DNA of 28,750 nucleotides from the IMG/VR virus record IMGVR_UViG_3300021197_000353, positions 1-28,750 of that record; one strand, written 5' to 3'. Of this stretch, positions 3,721 to 18,573 are shown in pieces. The notes beneath the pieces were generated by a model that was not told the origin of the DNA, searched no databases, and saw nothing but the letters and a program-made list of their open reading frames with translations. Each line of letters opens with the position of its first letter. The first letter of the stretch is position 1. The stretch is from a virus. The translations under genes and the position numbers were made by a program.

Positions 3721-3723
3721 TTT

Positions 3724-3942: not shown

Positions 3943-3949
3943 CACCCTA

Positions 3950-3958
3950 TGTTATAAT
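3950..3958 (+). promoter_or_regulatory. Candidate extended -10 promoter before scaffold gene
   Basis: TGTTATAAT matches the extended -10 pattern TGnTATAAT exactly. It lies in a 42-base intergenic gap, the natural place for a promoter in this packed genome. No good -35 box sits at normal spacing, as expected for extended -10 promoters. The preceding bases ACCCTATG resemble those at the site before 7982 (ACCCTGTG). The scaffold start is 26 bases downstream of the box. Confidence 0.4.
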
Positions 3959-3984
3959 CCGTCCATCGGCATCGCTCGCCGTTA

Positions 3985-5073
3985 ATGAGTGGACAAATTA
4001 TGACAGACGAAATCGAAACTGCGAACGCTGATGCAGTAGAAAATACAGCGGACAATACTAATATATCCGTCACGGATTTTGCAATGCGGAGACTTGGTGA
4101 AATGACTCCTGAAGCTGAAGAGCAACAGGAAGAAACTCAAGAAGTAGAAGCAGAGCCAGAAGCTGAGGTAGAGGAAACCGAAGAGGTTGCTGAAACTGAA
4201 GAACCTGAATCCGAAGATGTTCTTTCACAGTTGGACCTGGACGATATGTCCGAGGAGGATTTGCGTGAACTATCTGAAAAGCTAGGGAGCCGTGCAGTAG
4301 CTCGATTCGGTGAATTGACTGCTAAACGTAAAGCTGCTGAAGCTCAAATCAAACAGTTAGAATCAAGACTTCAAGAGAAGCCAAACCCATTAGAAAACAA
4401 TAAAAAAATTGAAAACAATCCTTTTAGTAATCTTGATTCAATTGAATCATTACAAGAAAAAGCTGTTGAAGTAGAAAATATTGTTGAATGGGCTGAAGAT
4501 ATTCTTTTTGAAAGTGATGGTTATGCTGCTGATGATGTAGTAACGGAAGTAGATGGTAAAGATTTAACAAAAGCTGATGTGCGTAAGTCCCTATTGCAGG
4601 CACGTAAAGCACAAAAGACTTTTCTTCCTGACCAATTAAAATCTCTACAGGCACAAGAACAAGGGCAGCAACTTGCTGAAGCCTTTGGTCAACGTGCTAA
4701 AGAAGAACTTTCTTGGTTAGAAGGAGAAGACAATGATTTACGGAAGCAGTACGAGGCTACTATTGGTGATGAAAGATTCAAGAAGTTAAAAAACGTCCTG
4801 AAAAAAGAAGCACCCGATGTAGCGTCACAGCTTGATTATTTCTTTGCTCATGCAACAAATAGTATCTATGGGCGTAAGCCAGTAGAAACAAAAAAGAAGG
4901 TAGCTCCTTCAATTAATCCTCCCAAGACAGGTAATCCATCAGCTGCTCAATCTGAAAAGAGTACAGGAAGAACTGCCAAGGCTTTAAAAGAATTAGAAGC
5001 CAGGTTTAAATCGACTGGTAGTGCAAACGATTTCGCCGCCTTACGAAAACTTAAAATGGCTTCACGCCGTTAA
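3985..5073 (+). CDS. Capsid scaffolding protein (probable)
   Basis: This 362-residue protein lies directly before the major capsid gene, the standard position of a scaffold. It has the usual composition: a very acidic, Glu-rich N-terminal third (residues about 35-100), a coiled-coil-prone middle rich in Lys, Glu and Gln, and a basic C-terminus (TAKALKELEARF through KLKMASRR), which in scaffolds contacts the coat protein. It would guide procapsid assembly and leave before or during packaging. Two in-frame starts are possible, ATG 3985 and ATG 4000; the second has a weak purine-rich GAGTGG about 8 bases upstream and may be the true start. No protease domain is visible. Confidence 0.75.
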   Translation: MSGQIMTDEIETANADAVENTADNTNISVTDFAMRRLGEMTPEAEEQQEETQEVEAEPEAEVEETEEVAETEEPESEDVLSQLDLDDMSEEDLRELSEKLGSRAVARFGELTAKRKAAEAQIKQLESRLQEKPNPLENNKKIENNPFSNLDSIESLQEKAVEVENIVEWAEDILFESDGYAADDVVTEVDGKDLTKADVRKSLLQARKAQKTFLPDQLKSLQAQEQGQQLAEAFGQRAKEELSWLEGEDNDLRKQYEATIGDERFKKLKNVLKKEAPDVASQLDYFFAHATNSIYGRKPVETKKKVAPSINPPKTGNPSAAQSEKSTGRTAKALKELEARFKSTGSANDFAALRKLKMASRR

Positions 5074-5104
5074 CTAAATAATAACTCATTAATAATAACT
5101 TATA

Positions 5105-6097
5105 ATGTCATTCTCAAATACATTCGACACCACCAATACTGGTTCTGGTGTTTCCAATCGGGAAGACTTGACTGATGTCTTGACTATCCTTGCTCCTGAA
5201 GAGACTCCTATTCTCTCTTCAGCTAACAAACAACGTGCTACTGCTACTAACGTAGAGTGGACTGTTGATTCTCTAAGTGCTCCAAGTACTGCTGGTATCT
5301 CTGAAGGTGCTGACGTAACTGCATTCACTGACCAATTCGCTGGTCGTGCTCGCCTTGGTAACCGCATCCAGAAGTTCCGCCGTGACTACATGGTATCCGA
5401 CCTCCAAGAGGCTGTTGATTCCGTTGGTCCTGCTAAGATTGCTCAAGCAGAAGCTAAAGCTATCCGTGAACTAAAACGTGACGTTGAAGCTACACTTGCT
5501 GGTACACAAAACAGTGCTACTGAAGATGGTGCTGGTACAGCTAATGCCCTTCGTGGTCTTGGTGACTGGCTTGACGGTGCTGCTGGTGGCGTTCCTGCTG
5601 CCTTCCAGACTCCTGGTGGAAGCATTAACGCAACAGGCACTAACTTCACAGAAACAGTATTCAACACAATGATTAGTTCAATCTTCCGTGTTACTGGTTC
5701 TACTAACAACCTTATGCTTGTTGCTGATACTGCTCTTCGTAGCACTATTGCTGACTTCGCACGTACAACTGCTTCCGCTACTGACAATGTTCGTAGCGTA
5801 AACTATGACGGCAACAGCGGTTCAATCAAACTATCCGTTGACTTATATGAGTCAGACCACGGTGTTGTTTCAATTGTAAACGGCAATCCTGATTGTATGC
5901 CAGCCGTTACTGGTGGTACTGCAAATGGTGCTGGTTATATTGTAAACCCAGAATACTACGGTGTTCACGAGCTTATCCCAATGGGAAGCACTCGTCTTCC
6001 AAATCTTGGTGGCGGTGAGCGTGGATTCGTTGACTGTGCACTTACACTCGGCGTGTACCATCCTGGTGCTCACGGTTACATCCAAGCAATAAGCTAA
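5105..6097 (+). CDS. Major capsid protein, SU10-like HK97 fold
   Basis: This 330-residue protein has an N-terminal segment (REDLTDVLTILAPEETPILS, residues about 19-38) and following VEWTVDSL that match the SU10-type major capsid protein family, which usually reads DLTD.L..I.P.ETPFLS...W..D. Gene order (scaffold, this gene, decoration-like gene) supports the call. The central part has the expected helix with RELKRDVEATLAGTQN, and the end is rich in Gly and beta strands. Hundreds of copies would build the icosahedral head. The 31-base gap upstream is AT-rich, and the ATG has no clear Shine-Dalgarno. Codon use is uniform and rich in GCT and GGT, as expected for a highly expressed gene. Confidence 0.85.
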   Translation: MSFSNTFDTTNTGSGVSNREDLTDVLTILAPEETPILSSANKQRATATNVEWTVDSLSAPSTAGISEGADVTAFTDQFAGRARLGNRIQKFRRDYMVSDLQEAVDSVGPAKIAQAEAKAIRELKRDVEATLAGTQNSATEDGAGTANALRGLGDWLDGAAGGVPAAFQTPGGSINATGTNFTETVFNTMISSIFRVTGSTNNLMLVADTALRSTIADFARTTASATDNVRSVNYDGNSGSIKLSVDLYESDHGVVSIVNGNPDCMPAVTGGTANGAGYIVNPEYYGVHELIPMGSTRLPNLGGGERGFVDCALTLGVYHPGAHGYIQAIS

Positions 6098-6122
6098 CCC
6101 CTAACTAAGGAGATATAATAAT

Positions 6123-6581
6123 ATGGCTAAATTAACCGTAAATGAATCAAGTGGTGATTTTACTCACGTACTTGTTCTTTCTGCTCAAGACATTGTAAAC
6201 GCAAGCACTAACCAAACAGTATGGGGTAAAATTCCTGCTGGTGGTGGAGTTGACGTTGCTTTTGCTGTGGAGTCCGTTGCTCTTGTTGGAGCTTCTGACA
6301 TCACGCTTGAAGTTGGAACTGGAACTGATGACGACACACTTATCGATAGCTTCGACATTGACGCTAACGCAGGTGCTACTGTCTACAACAGTGGAACAGA
6401 CTTCGTTCAAGGTGCTGGAACTACAACAGTTAAGGCTGGAGCCTCTCCTGTAGCTGGTTCTGGTGGTGCTGCTGCAACCAATCTTATTTACAAGTTTGGT
6501 GGAACAGTTGCTAACTTAACTGCTGGTGAAGTTATCATTGGTGTTCGTGTATTCGACCCAATGCGTTTCTCTGCAAGCTAA
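6123..6581 (+). CDS. Capsid decoration-like protein
   Basis: This 152-residue protein is rich in Gly, Ala, Thr and Val with almost no Lys or Arg, predicted to be mostly beta strands, and encoded directly after the major capsid gene. This is the typical place and composition of head decoration or stabilising proteins. The start has the clearest Shine-Dalgarno of the structural region (AAGGAG, 11 bases before the ATG). A strong terminator follows 15 bases after the stop. Capsid and decoration genes thus share a unit whose 3' end is set by that hairpin. The exact family is not recognised. Confidence 0.62.
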   Translation: MAKLTVNESSGDFTHVLVLSAQDIVNASTNQTVWGKIPAGGGVDVAFAVESVALVGASDITLEVGTGTDDDTLIDSFDIDANAGATVYNSGTDFVQGAGTTTVKAGASPVAGSGGAAATNLIYKFGGTVANLTAGEVIIGVRVFDPMRFSAS

Positions 6582-6595
6582 TTAAATTCTGGTTG

Positions 6596-6624
6596 GGGGG
6601 TCTTCGGACCCCCTGCCTTTTTTT
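6596..6624 (+). terminator. Intrinsic terminator with cUUCGg tetraloop
   Basis: A perfect 7-bp stem GGGGGTC / GACCCCC (6596-6602 and 6607-6613) closes a TTCG tetraloop, giving the very stable C(UUCG)G loop, followed by TGCC and seven T. It lies directly downstream of the decoration gene and 4 bases before the next start codon. Confidence 0.92.
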
Positions 6625-6628
6625 ATTT

Positions 6629-6937
6629 ATGGATATAATTGTTCCTACACTTAAACGCTACTCCGATGGCGAGATTGACCGTGCATTAATGCAGGAAATC
6701 AAAAACGGATTCAAGATGGAGCGGAAGAGTGAGCAATCACGTGTTGACCAAGCCGCTAAAGAAGCTACCGAACTAAAGGGGACTACTCACCCTACACTCG
6801 GTAAACCAGTCGCAACTCTTCCACCACGTGAATACTTCCGACTTGTACAGAAGTACGGTCAAGAGACTGTGCATTCTAAAGAATTTTTAAAGTACTACCA
6901 AAGAAAGTTTCCACAACTCAGCCCTAACAAAATCTAA
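6629..6937 (+). CDS. Hypothetical protein, head-tail region
   Basis: This 102-residue protein of unknown function is basic and helical in its first half (DGEIDRALMQEIKNGFKMER), with a segment PPREYFRLVQKYGQETVHSK typical of small uncharacterised proteins from short-tailed phages. The frame is open upstream to a TTG at 6593, but that would place the start inside the terminator stem, so ATG 6629 is chosen. There is no Shine-Dalgarno; the ATG follows the T tract of the terminator by 4 bases. Ribosomes could reach it only on read-through transcripts or from a promoter inside the terminator region. Its stop overlaps the next ATG (TAATG). Confidence 0.65.
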   Translation: MDIIVPTLKRYSDGEIDRALMQEIKNGFKMERKSEQSRVDQAAKEATELKGTTHPTLGKPVATLPPREYFRLVQKYGQETVHSKEFLKYYQRKFPQLSPNKI

Positions 6938-7953
6938 TGCAGACTCGTACATACGGCGATTTATTTAAATTAATCCAATCCTTATCAGGGGTTGGTTCTT
7001 TTGCGTCATCAGAACAAGATGATATTGCTAACTTTATTAATCGCCGATACTCGGAAGCTTTTGAAACAAGTCCTGTATGGAGTAGATTTTTAATTACATC
7101 AGAAGAACGAAAGGTTCTTCCGTTGGATTTAACTATTTCTGGAACAGCACGTGCTGACGGTAATCCAGCAGAACTAAATCAGGACTACGAGTATGTTGGC
7201 GTTGATACCGAAAGGGGAATGCCAGTCTATATTGGTAAAACAAATCCAAGTGCCGCAATACATAGGGATTCATCATATCGCTGGGTTATTGGTGCAGCAA
7301 GTAGCAATTTATCTATTACTGGTGCTAAACCATTTGGTACAGTTGATGTTTCATCAGTAAGCACTTATTTTCGTGGACAACTTCCTAGTACATCATTTGT
7401 TGCAAATTATATATACAATCCTGTTTCTGATACATACACAAAAATTTCAACATATACTGATACAGTTCCTACATTTACGGTAAATAAACAATACATACCG
7501 TATTCTCAATCAAATACTGTAGGTTCAGCTTCAACTCAATCTTTATCAACAATAGGTGGATTTAACCGTATTCACCGAAAACAATCATTTAATAGAAATT
7601 CATCCATTGAGTATGATTTTTTTGTTGACCGTTTGGGTGCTCATATTTTGAACGCAGTAACATCAGATGCAACATCTGCATTTGTTACTTATAAACAACA
7701 GTTTACACCTTTTACGACAAGTTCTAATTATTCAACAAGTAGCGAAGAAGTTCCTTCTGAGTTTTTTCATTACTTGGCTCATGCTGTATATGCTGACTTT
7801 TTACGCATGGATGGTCAAACAGATAAATCTTTAATAGAAGAACAAAACGCTAAAAACTATTTAGACTTAGAATTAGAAAGAATTGATTTAATTTCTAATA
7901 ATAACACAATTAATAATAGATTCACTACTTACGTAAATCGGCAGTCCCGATAG
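6937..7953 (+). CDS. Head-tail connector or adaptor-like structural protein
   Basis: This 338-residue protein starts on the last base of the previous stop. The N-terminus (TYGDLFKLIQSLSGVGSFAS, then QDDIANFINRRYSEAFE) resembles the helical part of podoviral adaptor or head-completion proteins that sit below the portal. The middle is Ser/Thr/Tyr-rich and predicted to be beta. The C-terminal part returns to helices (FFHYLAHAVYADFLRMDGQT, ending in NYLDLELERID), a pattern seen in connector proteins. Position after the capsid cluster supports a role at the portal-tail interface. No catalytic motif is seen. A tail tube component is an alternative. Confidence 0.55.
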   Translation: MQTRTYGDLFKLIQSLSGVGSFASSEQDDIANFINRRYSEAFETSPVWSRFLITSEERKVLPLDLTISGTARADGNPAELNQDYEYVGVDTERGMPVYIGKTNPSAAIHRDSSYRWVIGAASSNLSITGAKPFGTVDVSSVSTYFRGQLPSTSFVANYIYNPVSDTYTKISTYTDTVPTFTVNKQYIPYSQSNTVGSASTQSLSTIGGFNRIHRKQSFNRNSSIEYDFFVDRLGAHILNAVTSDATSAFVTYKQQFTPFTTSSNYSTSSEEVPSEFFHYLAHAVYADFLRMDGQTDKSLIEEQNAKNYLDLELERIDLISNNNTINNRFTTYVNRQSR

Positions 7954-7965
7954 ACGATAACCCTG

Positions 7966-7974
7966 TGATATAAT
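7966..7974 (+). promoter_or_regulatory. Candidate extended -10 promoter giving a leaderless transcript
   Basis: TGATATAAT is an exact TGnTATAAT extended -10 in the 28-base gap before the gene at 7982. Only 7 bases separate the box from the ATG, so the expected transcription start falls on or next to the start codon. The upstream ACCCTGTG resembles the ACCCTATG at 3944-3951. No Shine-Dalgarno is present between box and ATG. Confidence 0.42.
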
Positions 7975-7981
7975 ACCCGAC

Positions 7982-8251
7982 ATGGCAAGTTCACGAAATA
8001 ACACACTAGAATTCTCATCAGCTGGCTCACAAGTTCTTGGAGCAAGCGACACCGCATCACTTACAAGCATTGGTGCAATCCAAGTAATTAATGACTCAGT
8101 TTTCACAACACTTACTAGTAGTAATGTTGATGTTTCAAAGCAAGTCCTTACTGGCGTAACAATACCAGCAGGAACAGTTCTTTACGGTCAGTTCTCTGCT
8201 GTTGTAATGACTTCCGCTGCTGGAAACCTTGTAGTCTGTCACGTAGTCTAA
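7982..8251 (+). CDS. Small beta-rich structural protein, probable
   Basis: This 89-residue protein is rich in Ser, Thr, Val and Ala with only two or three charged basic residues. Its composition is like a one-domain beta sandwich such as a small tail or head trimer protein. The C-terminal half reads ...TLTSSNVDVSKQVLTGVTIPAGTVLYGQ... as alternating beta strands. It is encoded directly before the large adhesin-like gene and separated from it by a single base, so it may be co-produced with that protein. Its ATG lies 7 bases after a TATAAT box. The function is unknown; a decoration or fibre-adaptor role is only inference. Confidence 0.6.
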   Translation: MASSRNNTLEFSSAGSQVLGASDTASLTSIGAIQVINDSVFTTLTSSNVDVSKQVLTGVTIPAGTVLYGQFSAVVMTSAAGNLVVCHVV

Positions 8252-8252
8252 G

Positions 8253-9932
8253 ATGTTCTTAGCACTCAAGAACGCTCTAGGTAAGCCCTTAGTGGCTACC
8301 TACAAGGGTCTGCTGGATTCCTTTAGTGGGGCTTCTGCTGCGTATTCATTGCGTAGGCTTAGTGGTTCCTATACTGGACACGCTTTACGTGTTCGCAGAA
8401 GTGGTGATAATGTAGAGGCTGATGTTGGGTTCAATGGAGGTTCAGTAAGTTTAACATCACCTGTGACCAATGCAAGTGGTGAACCAGCTTACACACTTAC
8501 TTATTCTGATTCTGCCTGGCAGTTTACTGGAAGTGCAACTTTTACAAGTTCTAGTAGCACAGGAGCTTTTGTTATTTCTGGAACTTCGGGAACATTTTCT
8601 ACTGACCTGACATTCAGTACGTCAGTAGCGTCTGGTTCAGCAGTAAGCGTTAGGGTAACCGTAGCCTCAGGTATTTCAGGTACTTGGTCTGTTAATCTTC
8701 AAGACGCAAGTGGTTCAGTTGTTTCAAATAGTGCTGCTATTACAACACAGGGAACTAAGACCCTTGCACTAACTTCAACTGCTCCTGCAACAAAAGTTGT
8801 TATATCAACTATTTCTTCAAGTGCTATTATGGATGCCTCAAGCTTTAGTGCAACCTCCAGTGAAGGTGATACCGCAGCGACAAATCTTGATGCATTCCTA
8901 AAAGAAGGTGCAATAACTTATAGTTCTGATTACAGTTCTGGAACAGATGGCTGGACATTTAGTGGTGGTTCTGTTGCTGCACCTGAAAGCATTGGAGGAG
9001 AAGACAATGCGTTAAAAGTCACAAGAGGTGGGGCTGGTGCTTTCTTTCCACAAAAAAGTAATGCCATTTCAGTTGATGGAACATATATGGTTGAAGTAAA
9101 ACTTTATGTACCGTCAACTAACACAAGCAGTAACTTAAACTTTGATGTTAGGGAATCAAGTGGTGGCAATTCAGTTGCAGTTAATCTTACAGCACATGAC
9201 ACTTGGACAAGCTTTATTGTACCGCTTGTAGTTGGTAGTGGTAATAATGTGATTAGATTTGCAAGTACATCAATGTCAGATGGAGATGAGTTCTACGTTA
9301 AGGACTTCGTTACTACCTTGACTGGTGGTATGGATTTATTTGTTGATACTTGGTATGACCAAAGTGGTAATGAAAAAAATGCTACACAATCTTCTGCTTC
9401 GGCACAAGCAAAGCTTGCCTCAGGTGGTTCGTTAATAACAACTGGAGGAAAGATTGCAATGGATTTTGATGGCTCAAATGACTTTCTAGATATAGATTTT
9501 GGGGCGAACTTATCGCAACCAAATACTGTTCTGTTTGTTCACGAGTCAGATAATACAAATGCTGCTGATAATGAATTCTTTGATGAAAGAGGTAGCGGTC
9601 AACGTAGCCTTATTGATGTAGGTTCAGATGGTGATGATTATAGAATATTTGCAACAGGCTCTTTATTCTTTTCTGGAATTGATATAACTACAAATCAGTC
9701 AACCGTCTTTACAATCTTTAATGGCAGCAGTTCTGTTATTTCAATAAACGGAACAGCAGCTACAGGAACTACTGGTACTAATGGGATTAACCAAACGCAA
9801 GCGATTGCATACTCAGAACAAAATGGTGATTTTTATAATGGAACAATGCAGGAGTTCATTGTTTATAACTCTGACCAATCCTCAAACAGAACTGGTCTTG
9901 AATCAGACCTAAGTGACTTCTACGATATTTAA
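8253..9932 (+). CDS. Adhesin-like tail protein with AbfB-like start and LamG-type C-terminus
   Basis: This 559-residue protein has three visible parts. Residues about 23-70 (AAYSLRRLSGSYTGHALRVR) match a short motif found at the N-terminus of many phage tail fibre or spike proteins and related to arabinofuranosidase-B catalytic-domain starts. Residues about 215-350 look like a beta jelly-roll, carbohydrate-binding-like (GTDGWTFSGGSVAAPESIGG and later NVIRF). Residues about 360-559 form a LamG/concanavalin-like domain opened by DTWYDQSGNEKNATQ with Trp367 and a KIAMDFDGSNDFLDID segment. The whole protein is Ser/Thr/Gly-rich and lacks a signal peptide. It most likely binds host surface glycans during adsorption. 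No catalytic glycosidase residues could be assigned, so enzymatic activity is uncertain. Confidence 0.68.
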   Translation: MFLALKNALGKPLVATYKGLLDSFSGASAAYSLRRLSGSYTGHALRVRRSGDNVEADVGFNGGSVSLTSPVTNASGEPAYTLTYSDSAWQFTGSATFTSSSSTGAFVISGTSGTFSTDLTFSTSVASGSAVSVRVTVASGISGTWSVNLQDASGSVVSNSAAITTQGTKTLALTSTAPATKVVISTISSSAIMDASSFSATSSEGDTAATNLDAFLKEGAITYSSDYSSGTDGWTFSGGSVAAPESIGGEDNALKVTRGGAGAFFPQKSNAISVDGTYMVEVKLYVPSTNTSSNLNFDVRESSGGNSVAVNLTAHDTWTSFIVPLVVGSGNNVIRFASTSMSDGDEFYVKDFVTTLTGGMDLFVDTWYDQSGNEKNATQSSASAQAKLASGGSLITTGGKIAMDFDGSNDFLDIDFGANLSQPNTVLFVHESDNTNAADNEFFDERGSGQRSLIDVGSDGDDYRIFATGSLFFSGIDITTNQSTVFTIFNGSSSVISINGTAATGTTGTNGINQTQAIAYSEQNGDFYNGTMQEFIVYNSDQSSNRTGLESDLSDFYDI

Positions 9933-9934
9933 TC

Positions 9935-10177
9935 ATGTACTTACTTTACGCAACTGAAGAAGAAGCCAGTAATCGTGCTGACCAAGAAGGTCAACTCGTT
10001 GGTTACAAATACTGGACATCAAACGGTAGTACAAAATGGAAGACTTATCCAAGGATTACAGCGAAGCCATTGATTGGTTCAGCCAAGTGGTCATTGGATG
10101 TTTCTGACTATACACTTACAGAAGAGGAACAAGCAGCTACTGTTGATTCAGTAACTTACCCAACCAATAAAGTATAA
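9935..10177 (+). CDS. Hypothetical small tail-region protein
   Basis: This 80-residue protein begins 2 bases after the adhesin-like gene and overlaps the next start by one base. The N-terminus (MYLLYATEEEASNRADQEGQ) suggests a short beta strand and helix, then an aromatic Trp/Tyr-rich segment (YKYWTSNGSTKWKTYP), and an acidic turn before the end. Small genes directly behind a fibre gene are sometimes fibre chaperones, but no such family signature is visible here. Function unknown. Confidence 0.6.
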   Translation: MYLLYATEEEASNRADQEGQLVGYKYWTSNGSTKWKTYPRITAKPLIGSAKWSLDVSDYTLTEEEQAATVDSVTYPTNKV

Positions 10178-10341
10178 TGGATGATATTATTTACAGGTCA
10201 CTTATCGGAATGTTTGGCTTCTTTGCTACTATTGAACTTACACCTGTGAATGAAATATTAGGTTTTGCTGTTGGTCTAGCTACGTTCGTGTACATGACAT
10301 CTTCAGCAATAAAGGTAATACGAGAACTACTTAAAAAATAA
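10177..10341 (+). CDS. Small membrane protein, holin-like candidate
   Basis: This 54-residue protein has two hydrophobic stretches: about residues 8-20 (SLIGMFGFFATIEL) and 26-45 (ILGFAVGLATFVYMTSSA). A basic tail KVIRELLKK follows, which should face the cytoplasm. The ATG overlaps the preceding stop and its stop overlaps the next ATG, so it is embedded in a coupled run of genes. Size, two membrane segments and a charged tail fit a small holin or antiholin. It is placed directly before a second holin-like gene, so the two may form a pair. This is inferred from topology only. Confidence 0.6.
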   Translation: MDDIIYRSLIGMFGFFATIELTPVNEILGFAVGLATFVYMTSSAIKVIRELLKK

Positions 10342-10745
10342 TGACACCAGAAATTATAGCTATGCTGGGTGGTGGAACCTCTGGTTTTATTATGAAGATG
10401 ATTGCCAAGCAAGCAGAGAATCAAGCTCGCTTGTTTGAACAGACCATAAAAAAACAACAAGTCGCTGACGCATCCGCTGATTCTGCTGCTGCTCGTGGTG
10501 GTGATGCAGGTGGTTGGATTCGTAGATTCATAACTATCTGTGTTATGTTAGCTATTATTGCTGCTCCGTTTATTATTGCATTTACTGATGTTGGTGTGTC
10601 CGTACAGAAGGACTCAACATTCTTGTTTGGTTTATTTAGTTCTCAGAAATGGGAAACTGTAACTGGTTACGTTATTCTTCCTGAGGTTCGTCAGACTGCT
10701 TTGGCAATCGTAGGGTTCTACTTTGGAAGCTCGCAAGTAAAATGA
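10341..10745 (+). CDS. Holin-like membrane protein (possible GTA_holin_3TM type)
   Basis: This 134-residue protein begins with a Gly-rich helix (IIAMLGGGTSGFIMKMIAKQ), then a charged helical linker to residue about 55. A strong membrane segment follows GGWIRRF (residues about 62-82, ITICVMLAIIAAPFIIAF), and a last hydrophobic segment is at about 117-130 (TALAIVGFYFGSS). The W-I-R before the membrane span and the FYFGS ending recall three-span phage holins of the gene-transfer-agent type. It would make the inner membrane permeable at the end of infection. No endolysin lies next to it, so a lysis role rests on topology and neighbours. Confidence 0.55.
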   Translation: MTPEIIAMLGGGTSGFIMKMIAKQAENQARLFEQTIKKQQVADASADSAAARGGDAGGWIRRFITICVMLAIIAAPFIIAFTDVGVSVQKDSTFLFGLFSSQKWETVTGYVILPEVRQTALAIVGFYFGSSQVK

Positions 10746-10746
10746 G

Positions 10747-11553
10747 ATGGACAAAGATAAAGCAAGGAAAGAACTTACTCGACTCCGTGATTCGCTCAAT
10801 GAAGTCCTTGGTGGCAAAAGTAATAGCTTATCTAAAGCCGATGCCGAGAAAGCTGTTGTTGAAGCTAAGAAAGGTGTCAAAAGACTTCGTAAGTCCCTTC
10901 TTGAAAGGGTAAAGGATTTACCTGTAATCAACCAGGCTACCCAGTTGGGAGCCGCTGGCAGTGTAGCCGTAGCTACAGCTGCAGTCACACAGACCAATAT
11001 AGCTGTGGACGAGACTGAGATTCTTGTGGCTAGTGTAGCTAATGACGTAGTCGAGAACCGATTCCAGCCGCCATCATTCATTGATAGATTCGTTGATTTC
11101 TCGGAGGTCAATGCTTGGGGTCAAGGAGTAATGCAGGAAAAGGTAGAATCAGTAAAACAAGAGATGGCACGTACAGAGGCTAAGATTGCCCCTACAAGCC
11201 CAGATAAGAGCAAGGGTGATACCCAGGGTACCCCTGAGCCACAAAAGGACGCTGAGGAGCCTTCTAAGGCTAAATCCGTGTCCATAGGCAGGGATAAATC
11301 AGAAGAGGAGACTAAGGACGAGGAACCCAAGTCCGAGGACAAGGAATCCAAATCCGAAGAGCCAAAGTCAGAGGAGAAGGAATCCAATGAAGAATCCAAG
11401 CAAGAAACCCCAAAGGACAATAAGGCTAGGATAGAAAAGCCAGAAGTCATCCCAGAAGAAGAAGTAGATGACATAGAAACAGAAGGACCTAGACCAGGCA
11501 GTGATTTAATATTTACTCCCTATGACATGAAACCTAATTCACCTGCATCATAG
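10747..11553 (+). CDS. Highly charged repeat-containing protein of unknown function
   Basis: This 268-residue protein has three parts. Residues 1-58 are a basic, coiled-coil-prone region (ARKELTRLRDSLNEVL and EAKKGVKRLRKSLLERVK). Residues about 62-100 are small and hydrophobic (QLGAAGSVAVATAAVTQTNI), possibly an amphipathic or membrane-touching helix. From about 150 to the end the chain is a disordered Lys/Glu/Ser/Pro tract with a 12-residue tandem repeat (EPKSEDKESKSE / EPKSEEKESNEE, residues 193-216). It starts one base after the holin-like stop. It could be a lysis-cassette, internal virion or membrane-associated protein; nothing in it allows a firmer call. Confidence 0.6.
   Translation: MDKDKARKELTRLRDSLNEVLGGKSNSLSKADAEKAVVEAKKGVKRLRKSLLERVKDLPVINQATQLGAAGSVAVATAAVTQTNIAVDETEILVASVANDVVENRFQPPSFIDRFVDFSEVNAWGQGVMQEKVESVKQEMARTEAKIAPTSPDKSKGDTQGTPEPQKDAEEPSKAKSVSIGRDKSEEETKDEEPKSEDKESKSEEPKSEEKESNEESKQETPKDNKARIEKPEVIPEEEVDDIETEGPRPGSDLIFTPYDMKPNSPAS
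11323..11394 (+). repeat. In-frame tandem repeat, 2 x 36 bp
   Basis: Two adjacent 36-base units (11323-11358 and 11359-11394) encode EPKSEDKESKSE and EPKSEEKESNEE. They keep the reading frame and lie in the acidic disordered tail of the 10747 gene. Degenerate copies may flank them on both sides. Confidence 0.75.
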
Positions 11554-11554
11554 T

Positions 11555-11719
11555 ATGATAGAATACCTGATAGTAAATTACAAAGATAATATCGTTGCAA
11601 TGTCCTTTGCTTACATTGGCATACTGTCAATTATAGCTATGTTCTTACCTAAGAATAACCTACTCGGAAAGGTCAGCAAAGAAATCAAATCAATTATAAC
11701 TACTCTGTTTAAGAAGTGA
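11555..11719 (+). CDS. Small single-span membrane protein
   Basis: This 54-residue protein starts one base after the preceding stop and overlaps the following GTG start as GTGA. Residues about 14-32 (VAMSFAYIGILSIIAMFLP) form one membrane span, followed by a basic tail (KNNLLGKVSKEIK and ending in LFKK). It belongs to the run of membrane genes from 10177 to 12333 and could be a lysis accessory, antiholin or partner of the downstream PEP-CTERM-like protein. No family is recognised. The frame is supported by tight packing and by a credible membrane topology. Confidence 0.6.
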   Translation: MIEYLIVNYKDNIVAMSFAYIGILSIIAMFLPKNNLLGKVSKEIKSIITTLFKK

Positions 11720-12333
11720 ACCGCATCCTCATAGCATTTTTATTTGTATCTAGCATATTGGCTAGTGTCGTGCTTACTGATGTATCAGTGAAAGAAAGTG
11801 GCTATGAGTACACATTTGGCGTATCAATAGATGACAGCAAGTACGTCACAGATTTTATGGGTATAGGCACATATACTTACTATGAGAATATGACTTTTAC
11901 CACAACTACAGCAGGGCAGTACCAGTTCACAGACATTGGTTCCAGCCTTACTAATGGCAGTACAAATACTGCTGTGCTATTGTACAATAATCCTGATGCT
12001 GTATTGATTACTGATGAGCCATGGGCTTTTTACAACAGTGATGATTTTTACTTTGGTGGCGGGCAGGATTATGTCAACAACATGAATAGCAATGACACTA
12101 GCTCTGACAGTACACCATTTAATACAACCCTGGACTTAAATGCTGACACACAATATACTGCTGTGTTTACTGCATTCCAAGATGGTATACTTGGCGGTAT
12201 CAACGTCAAAATAAACTCACCGTCTCAGTTGACTCATGGTGTTATACCAGAACCAAAGGACGCAGGATTTGTAATCGCTTTAATAGTAGCTACGTTCGTA
12301 GCGTTCAGCTACTTCTATACTAAACTCAAATAA
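11716..12333 (+). CDS. Secreted protein with PEP-CTERM-like sorting signal
   Basis: This 205-residue protein starts at a GTG that overlaps the previous TGA. Residues 1-20 form a signal peptide (MNRILIAFLFVSSILASVVL). The body (about 21-175) is rich in Thr, Ser, Asn, Asp and Tyr, with many possible glycosylation sites and little Lys or Arg. The end shows the three parts of a PEP-CTERM signal: IPEP at 177-180, a hydrophobic span at about 183-200, and a short basic finish KLK. In bacteria such signals are processed by exosortase, which delivers proteins to the outer surface or matrix. Here the protein is phage-encoded, between holin-like genes and the basic-peptide cassette. The basic end is weaker than the usual RRR/RRK, so a plain two-span envelope protein is the main alternative. 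Confidence 0.62.
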   Translation: MNRILIAFLFVSSILASVVLTDVSVKESGYEYTFGVSIDDSKYVTDFMGIGTYTYYENMTFTTTTAGQYQFTDIGSSLTNGSTNTAVLLYNNPDAVLITDEPWAFYNSDDFYFGGGQDYVNNMNSNDTSSDSTPFNTTLDLNADTQYTAVFTAFQDGILGGINVKINSPSQLTHGVIPEPKDAGFVIALIVATFVAFSYFYTKLK

Positions 12334-12342
12334 AGGAATATT

Positions 12343-12450
12343 ATGCCAGATGGAAAAGGTACATACGGAACTAAACGAGGTCGTCCACCAATGGTAGCCA
12401 AAGGCAAAGGCAAAGGCAAGGGCATGACAGGAAAACGAAAGAAGTGCTAA
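12343..12450 (+). CDS. Tiny basic peptide with AT-hook-like motif
   Basis: This 35-residue peptide has a good Shine-Dalgarno (AAAGGA, 6 bases before the ATG). KRGRPP at residues 11-16 contains the GRP core of an AT-hook, which binds the minor groove of AT-rich DNA. It is followed by a Lys-Gly run (AKGKGKGKGM) and ends with KRKKC. It contains 1 acidic residue against about a dozen basic ones. It is the first of five tiny basic genes joined by TAATG overlaps. A role in binding or condensing phage DNA, perhaps inside the particle, is likely but inferred. Confidence 0.65.
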   Translation: MPDGKGTYGTKRGRPPMVAKGKGKGKGMTGKRKKC

Positions 12451-12578
12451 TGCATCGCAAAATACTAGAAGTTGCTTCAAAACTGGAGCAAGCATCCAAG
12501 GCTCATGCTGGACAAGCAAAGGTTCTTAGAAAAATCGTTGACGCTAAAATGTCAAAGAAACGAAAGCCTGTAAAATAA
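12450..12578 (+). CDS. Tiny basic helical protein
   Basis: This 42-residue protein overlaps the neighbouring genes by single bases on both sides (TAATG). It is one long predicted amphipathic helix (KILEVASKLEQASKAHAGQA...) with Lys and Arg on one face, ending in a basic tail MSKKRKPVK. It has no hydrophobic core for a separate globular fold, so it may oligomerise or bind nucleic acid. It is too short for firm family assignment. The main support is its position in the strictly overlapping cassette. Confidence 0.58.
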   Translation: MHRKILEVASKLEQASKAHAGQAKVLRKIVDAKMSKKRKPVK

Positions 12579-12751
12579 TGGCAGCAAAGAAAGCAAAGAG
12601 CGGAGGCAAGATATGCCCCGAAGGTAAGGCGTGGGCAAGGCGAACCTTTGACACGTATCCTTCTGCGTACGCAAACTTAGCTGCATCTAAATATTGTAAG
12701 GACCCCAACTACGCCAAGAAATCAAAAGGCGGTAAAAGAAAGGGACGATAA
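12578..12751 (+). CDS. Tiny basic protein with paired Cys
   Basis: This 57-residue protein overlaps both neighbours by one base. It has Lys-rich ends (MAAKKAKSGGK and KKSKGGKRKGR) around a compact core (ICPEGKAWARRTFDTYPSAY... with Cys13 and Cys40). The pattern CPEGKAWA...YPSAYAN recalls small uncharacterised proteins seen in marine phages. The two Cys could form a disulfide or bind metal. A virion DNA-associated role is possible; function is not established. Confidence 0.6.
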   Translation: MAAKKAKSGGKICPEGKAWARRTFDTYPSAYANLAASKYCKDPNYAKKSKGGKRKGR

Positions 12752-12996
12752 TGGCTCAACTAAAACAATGGCTAAAGCAAAACTGGGTAAGGATTGGAAC
12801 TGATGGCGAAATCAAAGGACCTTGCGGAACGTCTAAGGATAAGAAAAACCCTGACCGTTGCTTGCCTAAAAGAAAGGCTCTCAGCTTGTCGAAAAGCGAG
12901 AGAGCGGCAACTGCTCGAAAGAAGAAATCAGAAGGAGCAAGAGGAAGAACAGTCGTAGCAAACACACCTAAAGCAAAAGTAAGAACTAAAAAGTAA
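12751..12996 (+). CDS. Small basic protein of a marine-phage family (CGT...C motif)
   Basis: This 81-residue protein starts on the last base of the previous stop. The N-terminus (QLKQWLKQNWVRIGTDGEIK) is followed by GPCGTSKDKKNPDRCLP and a Lys/Arg-rich segment (SLSKSERAATARKKKSEGAR). From memory, proteins with W-V-x-I ... G-x-CG ... RCLP-x-x-KA-x-SLSK-x-x-R occur repeatedly in marine phages and some large viruses, without assigned function. The very high positive charge suggests contact with DNA or RNA. It belongs to the overlapping basic cassette. Confidence 0.65.
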   Translation: MAQLKQWLKQNWVRIGTDGEIKGPCGTSKDKKNPDRCLPKRKALSLSKSERAATARKKKSEGARGRTVVANTPKAKVRTKK

Positions 12997-13241
12997 TGGC
13001 TGACAAATCAAAAATGAAATGCAACGTGCCACGCCGTGAAGTACAGGGTGGCAAGAAGTTCGTAGTGAAAGCCTGCCAAGGCGGAAAAGAAAAACTAGTA
13101 CGTTTTGGCGATGCTAACATGACAATTAAAAAAGACCGTCCAGCACGTAAGAAAAGTTACTGTGCACGAAGCGGCGGTATTAAAGGTAAGAACAATAAAC
13201 TATCAGCTAACTATTGGAGCCGTAGGGCTTGGAACTGCTAA
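12996..13241 (+). CDS. Small basic protein of a marine-phage family (RFGD-NM-IKKD motif)
   Basis: This 81-residue protein has an N-terminal part carrying three Cys-containing segments (MKCNVPRRE, KACQGGKEK). Then comes KLVRFGDANMTIKKDRPARK, KSYCARSGGIKGKNNKLSAN and a final YWSRRAWNC. The pattern RFGDxNMxIKKDxPARxKS...ARxxG...YWSRR-W is one I recognise from small proteins in cyanophage- and pelagiphage-like genomes; their function is unknown to me. It probably binds DNA or metal given the charge and Cys content. Its stop overlaps the next ATG. Confidence 0.68.
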   Translation: MADKSKMKCNVPRREVQGGKKFVVKACQGGKEKLVRFGDANMTIKKDRPARKKSYCARSGGIKGKNNKLSANYWSRRAWNC

Positions 13242-15403
13242 TGCCTGAATATCGCACATATGGACGAAGAGATGACCGTATTTCCAGGGATGGAGATGTA
13301 GGTTTTGTTGGTTTTAATAATCGCCTAAGACCTGACCAACTACAATCAGGATTGCTTGCTGATTCACGAAACATAAGACTTGACCGCAATGGTGAAGCAC
13401 AAGTGCGTAAAGGCGTTGAGTTGATTACCGCACCGCTTGCTATCGGTGGTGCAGCTTTAATATTACCATTTTATTTAGTATCCGATGACAGTTCTGTTAC
13501 AGTTACTCAAACTGGCGGTGAGTTAGTAATAACTAATGTAAATGCTACTAACTTTCCAAGTTCAGGAACTATTAATCTTTCAGGCGTTACAGGAATAAGT
13601 CCTGACCCAAATGGAAATCGTGCGTTTACAAGAAACAGTGCAACGCAAATTACAGTTTCGGACCAAACATATACAGGTACAGCTGGTGGTACAGCTACGG
13701 TAAAGTTTGGTATACTTGACGATACTGCTGTTAATTCAATATATGGCTCATGCGGATATTCTGACCCAAACAACAATGCAAGTCAGTATATAATTATTGC
13801 CTCAAATGCAAAAGCAATTTCTATTGATGTAGGAACTGGAACAACTACGGACATTGCTTATCCTACTGGAGTCACAGTCAGTCAATCAGTTGACATGATT
13901 CAAGCCTTTAACAAGGTATTTATTTTTAGAAACGGAGAAACAGCACTTGAGTGGAATGGTTCATTTTCTGGCTCTCCTGCATTTACTAAGGTATCCAGCG
14001 GAACATATACACAGCCAGTACCTATTGATATTACTGATTTAGATTATGCTAGTGGTATTGCAACCGCTACTGTAAGTAGTACGGCAACATTATTAGAAGG
14101 GGATGAATTAACTTTTACTACTGCTGGTTCATCAACTTACGCAGTTGGAGATAAAGTAACCGTCAAGTCAGTAACTAATTCAACAACATTTACTTTTATA
14201 ACAGATAAAGAGGACCTTAGTAATAAATCAGCTACTGTTCAAAAAAATGTATCAGTAGGTCTTGGATTTAGCCATATGCCTGCACCTCCGTTTGCTGTAT
14301 ATCATCAACGTAGATTAGTAATGCCTTACAGATTTACCGTGGATGCTTCAAGCGATAGCTTTACTGCTCGTGGAATACTTGATGAGGTTATTGCTTCTGA
14401 CATATTAGATAGTGATACATATGACCAAATATACGCTCAGTACAGATTTAACGCTGGTACCGCTGACTTTGTTGTTGGATTGCATTCATTCTCTGAAGAT
14501 GTCTTATTGGTATTTAATCGAAACAGTATACATCAAATATCAAATAGTATTAATTTACAATCAGCTACTACACAATTATTAACCAATGAGGTTGGATGTG
14601 TAGCTCGTAAATCAATCGTACAGGTAGGAAATCGTGTTATATTTTTGTCTGATAATGGTATATATGGGACTGAATTTTTTGATGAATACAATCTTCGTGG
14701 TACTGAAACACCATTAAGCGAGCCAATAAATGAAACAATACAAACAATTAATAAGGATGCTTGGGAGAACTCAGTAGCTACTTACTTTGATAATCGTTAT
14801 TTTATTGCCGTTCCTACTGGCTCATCAACCTCCAACAATACTATTCTTGTTTATAATTTTCTTAACAAACAATGGGAAAGCGTAGATACAGTATCAGATT
14901 CTAATTATCACAGCGAAAACTTAATAGTAGTTGGCGATGGTGATAACAGGGGTGTGTATGCCGTAAATGACATTGGCGGCGTTCACAAACTAGATGAGCG
15001 TGTTGATGGCATTGACCGAGTGATTACTCAAATAGGTGGTAGCCAAAAAAATCTTCAAGCGGATGCTTCTGTAACTACAAGACAGTTTACACTTGGTACA
15101 TTAGAGCGTAAATCGTGGAAACAATTTGAAATGCACGTTCAATCAAGCGAAGATAATACTTCTGATTTTAGTATATCATCCGAAACTGAAAATCCTGACG
15201 CAACTATTTCACTGGGAAATCTTTCCGATTTTGTTGGTTCAGCACTAGCAATTGATGAGGATGTATCCATACGTGGTAGAATAGGGAATCGCCGTGGATA
15301 CGGAATACAATTTACAATTAACAATACTATTGGAAGACCAAGATTAAGAGCTATTGATGTTGATGGCTCAATTTCCTTCCGCTCAACTCAAAAAGCTGAC
15401 TAA
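13241..15403 (+). CDS. Large tail structural protein (nozzle or stabilisation-like)
   Basis: This 720-residue protein uses ATG 13241, which overlaps the preceding stop. An in-frame TTG at 13229 lies inside the previous gene and is not used. The N-terminus (GFVGFNNRLRPDQLQSGLLA, then DSRNIRLDRNGEAQVRKGVE) is typical of a family of podoviral tail proteins in which residues before this read GF.G.N....P..L..G.......N......G....R.G. The remainder is beta-rich, with repeated blades such as YFDNRYFIAVP and VFNRNSIHQIS that suggest a propeller. Such proteins form the tail nozzle or plug below the connector. The position between small virion proteins and the collar fibre supports this. Confidence 0.65.
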   Translation: MPEYRTYGRRDDRISRDGDVGFVGFNNRLRPDQLQSGLLADSRNIRLDRNGEAQVRKGVELITAPLAIGGAALILPFYLVSDDSSVTVTQTGGELVITNVNATNFPSSGTINLSGVTGISPDPNGNRAFTRNSATQITVSDQTYTGTAGGTATVKFGILDDTAVNSIYGSCGYSDPNNNASQYIIIASNAKAISIDVGTGTTTDIAYPTGVTVSQSVDMIQAFNKVFIFRNGETALEWNGSFSGSPAFTKVSSGTYTQPVPIDITDLDYASGIATATVSSTATLLEGDELTFTTAGSSTYAVGDKVTVKSVTNSTTFTFITDKEDLSNKSATVQKNVSVGLGFSHMPAPPFAVYHQRRLVMPYRFTVDASSDSFTARGILDEVIASDILDSDTYDQIYAQYRFNAGTADFVVGLHSFSEDVLLVFNRNSIHQISNSINLQSATTQLLTNEVGCVARKSIVQVGNRVIFLSDNGIYGTEFFDEYNLRGTETPLSEPINETIQTINKDAWENSVATYFDNRYFIAVPTGSSTSNNTILVYNFLNKQWESVDTVSDSNYHSENLIVVGDGDNRGVYAVNDIGGVHKLDERVDGIDRVITQIGGSQKNLQADASVTTRQFTLGTLERKSWKQFEMHVQSSEDNTSDFSISSETENPDATISLGNLSDFVGSALAIDEDVSIRGRIGNRRGYGIQFTINNTIGRPRLRAIDVDGSISFRSTQKAD

Positions 15404-16047
15404 TGGCAATTTTAACTAAAGGAACAGATTTCACAACAGGAGACCAGGTAACAGCTGTAAAGCTAGATAACTTGGTAGATAACGCTACATTTGCATCAGG
15501 TGCAGTAGACAATACTACTACTCAAATAGATGGCAGTGGTCAAATTATTGTCAAGGACGCTGGAATTGGTACTGCTAAAATAACTGATGACGCAGTAACT
15601 GCGGCTAAAATTGCAGCTGGTGCAGTAACAGATGTTGTTTACCCTGTTGGTTCAATTTTCACAACCGTTACTAACTATGCTGATTCTGCGGCAGTTGTGT
15701 CCGCTATTGGTGGAACAACATGGACAGCCTTTGGTGCAGGTCGAGTTCTAGTAGGTTTGGACTCCAGTGATACTGATTTTGATACAGTAGAAGAAACTGG
15801 AGGCGTAAAAGAAGTTACACTATCTACTTCTCAAATTCCTGCTCACACTCACGATACTGGCGTTGTTGGTCAAAATGATAAAAACTTTGTAGCAGCTCAA
15901 AGAATAACTGTTTCTAGTCAAAAAGGTTTTGACGATGATAATAATGATGGAACCGCATCATCTAGAACAACATCAGTAGGTGGAGGTTCTGCTCACACAA
16001 ATGTACAGCCTTACATTGTGGTCTATATGTGGAAACGTACTGCTTAA
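15403..16047 (+). CDS. Short tail fibre with tail-collar domain
   Basis: This 214-residue protein overlaps the stop of the previous gene (TAATG). The N-terminal part carries the repeated shaft pattern DAGIGTAKITDDAVTAAKIA (residues about 52-71), common in fibre stems. The C-terminal half matches the phage tail-collar domain: YPVGSIFTTV at 80-89, GRVLVGLDSSD at 113-123, IPAHTH at 145-150, and a closing NVQPYIVVYMWKRTA. The paired His of IPAHTH is the hallmark of this domain, which often binds metal in trimeric fibres. It probably contacts the host surface or joins other fibres to the tail. Confidence 0.82.
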   Translation: MAILTKGTDFTTGDQVTAVKLDNLVDNATFASGAVDNTTTQIDGSGQIIVKDAGIGTAKITDDAVTAAKIAAGAVTDVVYPVGSIFTTVTNYADSAAVVSAIGGTTWTAFGAGRVLVGLDSSDTDFDTVEETGGVKEVTLSTSQIPAHTHDTGVVGQNDKNFVAAQRITVSSQKGFDDDNNDGTASSRTTSVGGGSAHTNVQPYIVVYMWKRTA

Positions 16048-16050
16048 TTA

Positions 16051-16548
16051 ATGGAAGTAGATAACCCCATACTTAACTCAGCTGTATCTGCACTTAATTC
16101 TGCAAAGCAGCCTAAGTTCATTGAGTTCGTAGATAAAGTTGTTGATTATTGTGTAGCCAACGAAAACGGAAAAGTATTTCAGGACTGGGACCGTGATGTT
16201 CTGAGACAGTTAGTAGCGTATCACCAAGCAAAAGGAACGCTGCTTGTTTTGGCTGATAGTGATTCGGAAATAAAAGCGGTGTTCATGTGGTATAATTGTG
16301 ACTCAGATGACCAGTGGAGTTTTGTTTACAATTGGGAAGAGGACAAACCAAAGGGGGATGCAATCTTCCTAGCGTTTCTTTTTGGTAGTGAACCATTTGC
16401 TATGAAAGAACTACTACTTAAATTTATTCAATGCGAACCTGATTGCCTTACAAAGAAATTACTCGGAGTAAGATGCAGGCAAGGTAATCCGACTCGTATT
16501 AAATATACAACTAAATTATTTTCTAAAATACTAAAAGCAAAGGAATAA
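16051..16548 (+). CDS. Hypothetical protein, possible acyltransferase-like fold
   Basis: This 165-residue protein begins 3 bases after the collar fibre gene. The middle holds a beta-rich section (GTLLVLADSDSEIKAVFMWY) and an acidic turn (YNWEEDKPKGDAIFLAFLFG), followed by helices and a basic end (GNPTRIKYTTKLFSKILKAK). Order and pattern loosely resemble GNAT or toxin-activating acyltransferase folds, where a central strand precedes the acyl-CoA-binding loop, but no clear cofactor motif is visible. Genes of this sort sit among virion genes in some podoviruses. It could modify a virion protein; this is speculative. Confidence 0.5.
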   Translation: MEVDNPILNSAVSALNSAKQPKFIEFVDKVVDYCVANENGKVFQDWDRDVLRQLVAYHQAKGTLLVLADSDSEIKAVFMWYNCDSDDQWSFVYNWEEDKPKGDAIFLAFLFGSEPFAMKELLLKFIQCEPDCLTKKLLGVRCRQGNPTRIKYTTKLFSKILKAKE

Positions 16549-16549
16549 C

Positions 16550-17647
16550 ATGGGAGGCAAAGGAAAAGCACCACCACCAATTGACCCAGGCAAAGCTATG
16601 GGCGAATATATGTTCGGAACTCAATTCACTCAAGATTACCAAGGTATTACCGACCCTCGGCTACAGGAGCGAATTATAGGTGCAGAAGAACAGTTTCGTC
16701 CTCGTTATGCTGAACTTGAGTTACAGGACATCGGGACCTTTGCACGTGGTCTAGAAGCTGGAGAAGTAGATGACCCACGATACCAAGCAGCACAGGACCG
16801 CATTAGTGACTTAGAGGCTGAACTAGCACAAACTAGTCCTACAACAACCACTACTAAACGTAGAGGTCGTAGTTCTTATAGCGGAACAACTACGGAAGAA
16901 GTAGAAAATCCAGATTACAAACGACTTCAATCAGAAATAGCAAGTCAAAAAGCTACACTTGATACGCTGTCACCTACACGTATGCGTGAGGATACACCTG
17001 GACTATTTGGTTTACTAGAAGAACAATCTCAACGAGCATTTGAATTACAGCAAGAACAATTAGCCGCACAACGTGCAGCTGATGTTGGAGCATTGCAAGA
17101 GTTTGCCCCTCAAGTTGTTGAGGCTTATCGTGCTGCTGACCCTGAAAGCACAGCATTGGCACAAGCTGCACAGCAACAAGCTATGGGACTCTTTGAGGAA
17201 GCTGCTGGTCCGTTGTCACCTGAGCGTAGACGTATGGCTGAACAGGCTGCTCGTGCTGGTAGTTTAGCTCGTGGACGTATTGGTGACGAATCATCAATTG
17301 CTTCTGAAATACTTGGTCGTGAACAATTTAAATCCGCACTACGTGCTGAAGCTCGTCAAGCAGGTGCTGGAGCATTTGGACAGTCACGTGCTTTGGCTGG
17401 TGATGTAGGAATGACCCTGTTAGGTCGTCCATCACAAGCAATTAATCTTGGGGGTCAGATGCTAGGACAAGCACAAATGCAAGCAAGTCAACCTATTGGA
17501 CCTCAACTATTTGACCCAAATGTGGGTGTTAATCTAGCCCTTCAGCAACGAGCACAGGATACTGAACTTGCAGCAGCAAAAGCACAGGCTCAGGGGGCAA
17601 TGATTGGTGGAGCCTTGGGTGGATTGGGAACAATGTTTGGCAAATAA
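16550..17647 (+). CDS. Internal virion or ejection protein (probable)
   Basis: This 365-residue protein has a good Shine-Dalgarno (AAAGGA, 5 bases before the ATG). The N-terminus is Gly/Pro/Lys-rich (GGKGKAPPPIDPGKAMGEYM), followed by long helices rich in Ala, Gln, Glu and Arg (for example LEEQSQRAFELQQEQLAAQR). The C-terminus is small and Gly-rich (GAMIGGALGGLGTMFGK), like a membrane-inserting segment. An ATG-GGxGKxPPP start with a helical core and a glycine-zipper tail is typical of the first of three ejection proteins in T7-like and related podoviruses. It would leave the head during infection and help form the trans-envelope channel. Confidence 0.65.
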   Translation: MGGKGKAPPPIDPGKAMGEYMFGTQFTQDYQGITDPRLQERIIGAEEQFRPRYAELELQDIGTFARGLEAGEVDDPRYQAAQDRISDLEAELAQTSPTTTTTKRRGRSSYSGTTTEEVENPDYKRLQSEIASQKATLDTLSPTRMREDTPGLFGLLEEQSQRAFELQQEQLAAQRAADVGALQEFAPQVVEAYRAADPESTALAQAAQQQAMGLFEEAAGPLSPERRRMAEQAARAGSLARGRIGDESSIASEILGREQFKSALRAEARQAGAGAFGQSRALAGDVGMTLLGRPSQAINLGGQMLGQAQMQASQPIGPQLFDPNVGVNLALQQRAQDTELAAAKAQAQGAMIGGALGGLGTMFGK

Positions 17648-17662
17648 TAACTATTAAATAAT

Positions 17663-18559
17663 ATGGCATTTCAAACAGGAACACAAATACGCCCAGAACT
17701 GGGCAGAGCAAACGTAAGCGGATTCGCCAGAGGCGGAGCAGCTATTGGTTCTGGTATCCTTCAGGGGATTGAAAACTATCAACAGCAAAAGCAAATTACA
17801 TCATCAGCGTTGGCTGACCTAGAAGGTCGCATGGCTGCTGACCCTTCTTTGTTGGAAACCACTTCACAAGCTGGTGGTGATATTGGAAAAGCTTTCAAAA
17901 GCGTATTTGAGGAAGGCAATTACAAACAAGGTGATGTTCTTAAATTAAGCGGTTTTGTAAATTCTCTTCAATCCCAGAATATTAACGAGCAGCAGTCACA
18001 ACTTCGTGATGCTCAGATTGCAGCAGCAAAAGCACAGGCTTCTGCGACTCAACAGTTACAAAACACCAAAGCTAAAAACCTTAATGCTATGGAAAAGGCT
18101 ATCGCAACAAACACATCAACCGATGGAAGTGTTGATGTCTCAGGGCTTACTTCAACCTATATGCAACTTGGTGGTCGGGACAAGGATGATATTGCTTTAT
18201 TTAGCGATATGGCAGAACAAGCAAAGACTGGCAAGGACCCAGTATTAAAGACCGTTACTATTGATGGCTTCAAGGTTCTGTTGGTTAATAATAAGTTCAT
18301 GCAAGCCAGGGGAGCAGGGGACGGGGTTGTTACTGAGCCATCCCAAATTAAGGTTATGCAAGATAAAACCGAACGGTACAAAAAAGCTCTTGAATTATAC
18401 AAACAGGGCGATATGGTTGGTTCCCAAGCTGAACTTATTGCTATTGGAATGAAAAATTTTATGAATTTACCGATGACACCAGAGGAAGCATTCCCAGATG
18501 TAGTTACTTCAAATAAGCCTACTGTTCCTGACTCACTTGGCATACTTGATACCCCATAG
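17663..18559 (+). CDS. Second internal virion or ejection protein (probable)
   Basis: This 298-residue protein lies in the 16550-23016 ejection block. The N-terminus (GRANVSGFARGGAAIGSGILQGI) is Gly-rich, followed by an extended helical Gln/Ala/Lys-rich region (ENYQQQKQITSSALADLEGR and QLRDAQIAAAKAQASATQQL). The end is short and unstructured. Helical low-complexity proteins of this kind between two other ejection-type genes are usual in short-tailed phages. The ATG has no Shine-Dalgarno. The stop is followed by the TATAAT box that precedes the next gene. Confidence 0.6.
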   Translation: MAFQTGTQIRPELGRANVSGFARGGAAIGSGILQGIENYQQQKQITSSALADLEGRMAADPSLLETTSQAGGDIGKAFKSVFEEGNYKQGDVLKLSGFVNSLQSQNINEQQSQLRDAQIAAAKAQASATQQLQNTKAKNLNAMEKAIATNTSTDGSVDVSGLTSTYMQLGGRDKDDIALFSDMAEQAKTGKDPVLKTVTIDGFKVLLVNNKFMQARGAGDGVVTEPSQIKVMQDKTERYKKALELYKQGDMVGSQAELIAIGMKNFMNLPMTPEEAFPDVVTSNKPTVPDSLGILDTP

Positions 18560-18567
18560 GGTATAAT
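18537..18567 (+). promoter_or_regulatory. Candidate promoter giving a leaderless transcript for the large ejection protein
   Basis: TATAAT at 18562-18567 is preceded by TTGGCA at 18537-18542, a one-mismatch -35 box at a 19-base spacing (longer than ideal). The box ends 6 bases before ATG 18574, so transcription should start at or next to the start codon. The -35 box overlaps the end of the previous gene. The flank ACCCCATAGGG shares the ACCC start with the two other sites. Confidence 0.42.
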
Positions 18568-18573
18568 GCATAC

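Follow-up and report, generated by a model that had tools for sequence, protein, structure and literature searches.

PEP-CTERM proteins, which are recognized by the model TIGR02595 and sorted by exosortase (EpsH), combine a C-terminal PEP or PE motif with a helix and a basic end, and their bodies are unrelated outside this tail (Haft et al. 2006, PMC1569441). In the proposed topology, the motif lies on the periplasmic side of the inner membrane, beside the active site of the exosortase, and the basic end points inwards (PMC1569441). The LPXTG/sortase and GlyGly-CTERM/rhombosortase systems (PMC3237569) show a similar tripartite arrangement of motif, helix and basic cluster, but use another motif and another enzyme. 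Here, we describe a phage gene with a PEP-CTERM-like tail, encoded in a virus record of 28,750 bases (the window), which also encodes a SU10-type capsid gene. The gene family shares the tail and the unrelated bodies with the bacterial proteins, and its long type has a signal-like N-terminus as well. In contrast to these proteins, the phage versions are phage-encoded, were seen once per contig and are coupled to a 54-aa membrane protein. Furthermore, the window protein lies below detection by the model, the final P of the motif varies among long-type tails, and the short type has no signal peptide, unlike PEP-CTERM proteins, which are said to have one always or nearly always (PMC3237569, PMC1569441).

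Among described phages, verrucophage P8625 (NC_029047), which infects Puniceicoccales strain IMCC8625, shares the 54-aa gene at the head of the cassette and the 134-aa membrane gene with the window (49% and 63–64% identity), but is annotated as a siphovirus whose coat protein is of the P22 type and has no PEP-tailed gene. The closest annotated phage is C75C1 (OQ984151), with a capsid of 66% identity, a portal-region protein of 71%, a 134-aa protein of 48% and many common genes; in contrast to the window, it has no 54-aa/PEP pair, and no host is on record. Besides that, C75C1 (L003) has annotated gamma-glutamyl cyclotransferase and amidoligase genes at 20149–22830, whose products possibly act on peptides or the cell wall. 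The earlier note on this DNA knew of no well-described phage case, and our literature search, whose coverage is incomplete, likewise found no report of a phage-encoded PEP-CTERM protein or of phages that make use of the exosortase pathway or target it. The signal as such has been described before. What appears to be new is that phages use it, that it comes with a fixed 54-aa partner and that one form does without a signal peptide.

The ORF, with its motif, hydrophobic span and basic end, was confirmed from the sequence as the earlier note had described it, and so was its position inside a run of membrane genes (10177–10341, 10341–10745 and 11555–11719; Table 1). Its start codon overlaps the stop of the preceding gene. 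According to hydropathy, the protein has only two hydrophobic segments (residues 1–26 and 180–204), the second of which directly follows the motif as a transmembrane helix (183–204 in the structural model). The N-terminal segment, present in 12/12 long-type proteins, had been read as a signal peptide at residues 1–20; the hydrophobic stretch is there, and on hydropathy its identity as a signal peptide is probable. The basic end is only KLK in the window, KPKRRK in its relative L001, and KRRK or KRRNK in the short type. The body was modelled with AlphaFold2 from an alignment of 12 homologues (mean pLDDT 67, pTM 0.61). Fold comparison gave no significant PDB match, nor did solved structures give a significant match by sequence; the best viral fold match was A0A516MBN4, an unnamed protein (E 7.5e-8). 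A search of 50,697 phage records returned nothing for the ORF, which also falls into no Pfam or PHROGs family, and the body and its cassette neighbours found no family model in Pfam or NCBIfam. An alignment of the long body (A5) found no bacterial relative, and with 0 matches in 373 genomes of the likely host order, a bacterial origin of this body is unsupported.

Table 1 Features of the PEP-tailed gene and its membrane cassette in the window.
Feature	Position	Strand	Basis
PEP-CTERM-like tailed phage protein, long type, 205 aa, GTG start	11716..12333	+	ORF and homologues
N-terminal hydrophobic segment, probable signal peptide, residues 1–26	11716..11793	+	Hydropathy 2.83
Beta-rich body, residues 30–168	11803..12219	+	AlphaFold2 model
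IPEP motif, residues 177–180	12244..12255	+	IPE invariant in 12 long-type homologues
C-terminal transmembrane helix (~residues 184–201) and short basic end KLK	12265..12330	+	Hydropathy, model helix 183–204
54-aa single-span membrane protein, MFLPKNN motif	11555..11719	+	4-base overlap with PEP gene; paired in every case
268-aa charged protein, acidic C-terminal part, conserved cassette member	10747..11553	+	Upstream of 54-aa gene in 62/62 distinct contexts
134-aa membrane protein (phrog_38283), holin-like by position only	10341..10745	+	PHROGs; common to P8625 and C75C1
54-aa membrane protein, head of cassette	10177..10341	+	49% identical to P8625 gp27

On more than 80 marine viral contigs, the gene directly after the 54-aa membrane gene ends in [VI]PE, a helix and mostly basic residues. 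This tail is borne by two unrelated bodies, namely the 205-aa long type of the window and an acidic short type of 80–105 aa. Short-type proteins mostly start with MSHE, show no hydrophobic N-terminus in hydropathy analysis and carry a net charge of −9 to −14 before PE and +2 to +4 after it, which is consistent with an N-out/C-in topology. Their tails are often canonical, for example VPEPSTYALLAGFAVLIFTMIKRRNK (L322) and IPEPSTYVLFAGFAVLLYTLIKRRK (L183). Three of them (L180, L186, L188) bear the window-type tail, IPE[PA]ADAGF..VA[FY].YFK, on the short body, which links the long and the short kind. Judged by sequence, the tail is a module common to two unrelated bodies. Within the long type, all 12 homologues, the most distant at 36% identity, have kept IPE and D182 unchanged: L001, a copy with 91% identity, retains SIPEPKDTGFVIALIVAAYVAFSYFYTKPKRRK, and homologues at 36–43% identity keep both features, with P, L, M or V in the fourth motif position. 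Conservation of IPEP had been proposed as support for the signal, and it holds for IPE but not for the final P, which is kept in 5/11 distinct long-type tails and replaced by L, M or V in the other 6. Among distinct short-type tails, 26/32 have [VI]PEP and 32/32 have [VI]PE; PE is present in all distinct tails of both types.

The PEP-CTERM assignment was examined with TIGR02595, which has a cut-off of 16 bits. Neither the window protein nor its 33-aa tail matched this NCBIfam model, even at E ≤ 10, and consequently the assignment is weak if drawn from the window protein alone. Pro-Glu-Pro is present near its C-terminus, and the protein is PEP-CTERM-like rather than a member of TIGR02595. Syntenic short-type relatives, on the other hand, exceed the cut-off (L322, 21.4 bits; L183, 17.5; L192, 17.2; L182, 16.3). 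In addition, a host-tail model built from 15 PEP-CTERM tails of an Opitutae MAG matched L183 at E 2.9e-7, and 14/15 of its best viral matches were the PEP-tailed gene; in the control, one shuffled tail reached E 0.06, and the window tail was not reached at E ≤ 1. The claim of a PEP-CTERM-like signal in phages is thus upheld by the conserved IPE core and by the short-type relatives, while a model match for the window protein itself is lacking.

In the cassette, the 134-aa membrane protein is followed by the charged protein of ~270 aa, the 54-aa membrane protein and the PEP-tailed protein, and the whole sits among structural genes. Structural genes are normally expressed late. The 54-aa gene and the PEP-tailed gene, whose start overlaps it, were paired in 80/80 and 93/93 cases when redundant copies are counted, and the first set comprises 43 distinct pairs. 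A second scan found the PEP-tailed gene after the 54-aa gene at 79/80 further loci; at the remaining locus, an ambiguous base interrupts a short-type gene. The 54-aa protein (11555–11719), in which MFLPKNN is nearly invariant, is always accompanied by the PEP-tailed gene in these contigs; it belongs to no known family, and its family has no relatives in 353 genomes of the likely host order. The ~270-aa gene is constantly present before the 54-aa gene, and the 134-aa gene is found upstream in 47 distinct contexts. Conversely, the pair is absent from 27/29 contigs that were found via the 134-aa gene and have 3 kb on both sides of it, and is therefore accessory in that set. The 134-aa gene itself (10341–10745) matches only the uncharacterised family phrog_38283 in PHROGs and, in the annotated collection, only the two phages P8625 and C75C1. 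Its product ends in ILPEVRQT, a hydrophobic span and K (LPE[VI] before the last hydrophobic stretch across the family), a geometry resembling the PEP tails, and also occurs in phages without a PEP gene, such as P8625. Three small basic proteins (12578–13241; e.g. MAAKKAKSGGKICPEGKAWARRTFDTYPSAYANLAASKYCKDP...) follow the cassette, in related contigs too.

As far as sequences can tell, the locus is characterized by a tripartite tail, its conservation, two bodies, a fixed 54-aa partner and a cassette among late structural genes. The reading towards which we lean, without great confidence, is that the gene represents one version of a conserved marine-phage gene with a PEP-CTERM-type sorting signal, altering the host envelope via exosortase. 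Since the protein carries a bacterial surface-sorting tag, the phage probably uses or disturbs the host's own protein-sorting enzyme. The phage tails appear to fit the topology described for the bacterial proteins (PMC1569441): anchored in the inner membrane, the protein would expose its body to the periplasm and keep the basic end inside, and the host exosortase would bind PE(P) at the outer face and cut there, thereby releasing the body or re-attaching it in the envelope. The long type, with its signal-like N-terminus and beta-rich body, could undergo export and cleavage and end up in the envelope, and the short type may insert its acidic N-terminal part without a signal peptide. Made late together with neighbouring membrane proteins, the product would most likely alter the host envelope at the end of infection, a change that would help lysis or release, or keep progeny and competitors off the cell. 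Surface display of the protein, as proposed in the earlier note, fits the long type and less so the short type; the latter has no signal peptide, and therefore simple display fails to explain the whole family. The late neighbourhood and the other membrane proteins point at least as much to an envelope action at the end of infection. In a wider proposal, which we put forward tentatively and with less confidence, the 54-aa membrane protein and the exosortase-signal protein might form a widespread marine-phage module that seizes or blocks exosortase sorting late in infection, with the short form as a substrate or inhibitor lacking a signal peptide. So far, most of what is understood of exosortase biology comes from genome-based inference. 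If the proposal is true, the module would serve as a natural probe of how exosortase works, mark the hosts of uncultured marine phages and reveal a new means by which phages act on the cell surface.

Among the other explanations, a simple membrane anchor within a cassette for lysis or envelope functions, with PE(P) as a leftover or helix cap and exosortase uninvolved, survives best, and we regard it as rather unlikely. It would agree with the membrane proteins next to the gene, one of them holin-like by position, with the variable final P of the long type, and with the comparable LPE, helix and K end of the 134-aa protein, which is also found in phages binned with hosts lacking exosortase. However, both TIGR02595 and the host-tail model match short-type tails specifically, PE is invariant although the bodies are unrelated, and some tails are canonical, such as VPEPSTYALLAGFAVLIFTMIKRRNK in L322. 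Still less probable is that the short acidic, and perhaps the long, proteins act in the membrane as a decoy that occupies or blocks the exosortase of the host, whose PEP-CTERM proteins and exopolysaccharide-linked surface layers would then fail to mature during infection. The short type indeed offers little beyond an acidic stretch and the signal and lacks a signal peptide for cargo export, both bodies have nothing but the tail in common, and the pairing with a small membrane protein is fixed; yet the folded body and signal-like N-terminus of the long type, conserved over 12 homologues, would be needless for a pure decoy, and the genes sit in a late cassette.

Among 6906 distinct ORF tails from related viral contigs, 59 combine [VIL]PE with a hydrophobic span and a net basic end, against 2.1 expected after shuffling; 40 of these come from the PEP-tailed gene, 19 from the neighbouring 134-aa gene and 0 from elsewhere. 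As the contigs are related by descent, the 40 tails do not represent 40 independent events, and the occurrence of a common tail on two unrelated bodies carries more weight. A chance motif in an ordinary membrane-anchored phage protein, as the failure of the window protein alone to match TIGR02595 might suggest, is very improbable and was rejected, since these 40 distinct tails stand against about 2 expected in all ORFs and the tail is conserved in about 60 distinct partners of the 54-aa gene.

The sorting signal had also been suggested to identify an exosortase-bearing host, and this part of the proposal is borne out to some extent. P8625, with its Puniceicoccales host, shares two cassette genes, and two phage contigs are binned in G001, an uncultured Opitutae MAG: one resembles P8625, and the other belongs to the same phage group as the window (capsid 73% identical, DNA 65–72% over several genes). 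G001 encodes an exosortase with the residues EACSG..R..H and over 15 PEP-CTERM proteins, and exosortase matches were found in 75/103 genomes of its order. Positions 1–20000 of the window, compared at the DNA level with 353 host-order genomes, matched G001 only, apart from short matches at E ~1e-3 that were taken as chance. However, a contig with a capsid closer to the window's than that of the G001 contig (L198, 82% identity) is binned in a ‘Rickettsiales’ MAG, in which we found no exosortase or PEP-CTERM matches. A capsid search in 385 genomes of the class of another MAG (L199, Rhodobacteraceae) reached 36% at best. Small phage contigs in bins are weak host evidence in either direction. Altogether, a Verrucomicrobiota host is likely, but not proven because of the closer contig in a MAG without exosortase.

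Elsewhere in the window, a phage tail lysozyme (PF18013, 3184–3720) immediately follows the 694-aa gene in the portal position, at a distance from the membrane cassette, and is a possible endolysin. We also considered a spanin role, in which the PEP protein would replace a lipoprotein; although no lipobox protein was found in the window, nothing speaks positively for this role, and it was rejected. Finally, an HNH endonuclease (PF13392) with a weak AP2 match is located between the structural and replication genes (23140–23880) and looks like a homing-type enzyme.
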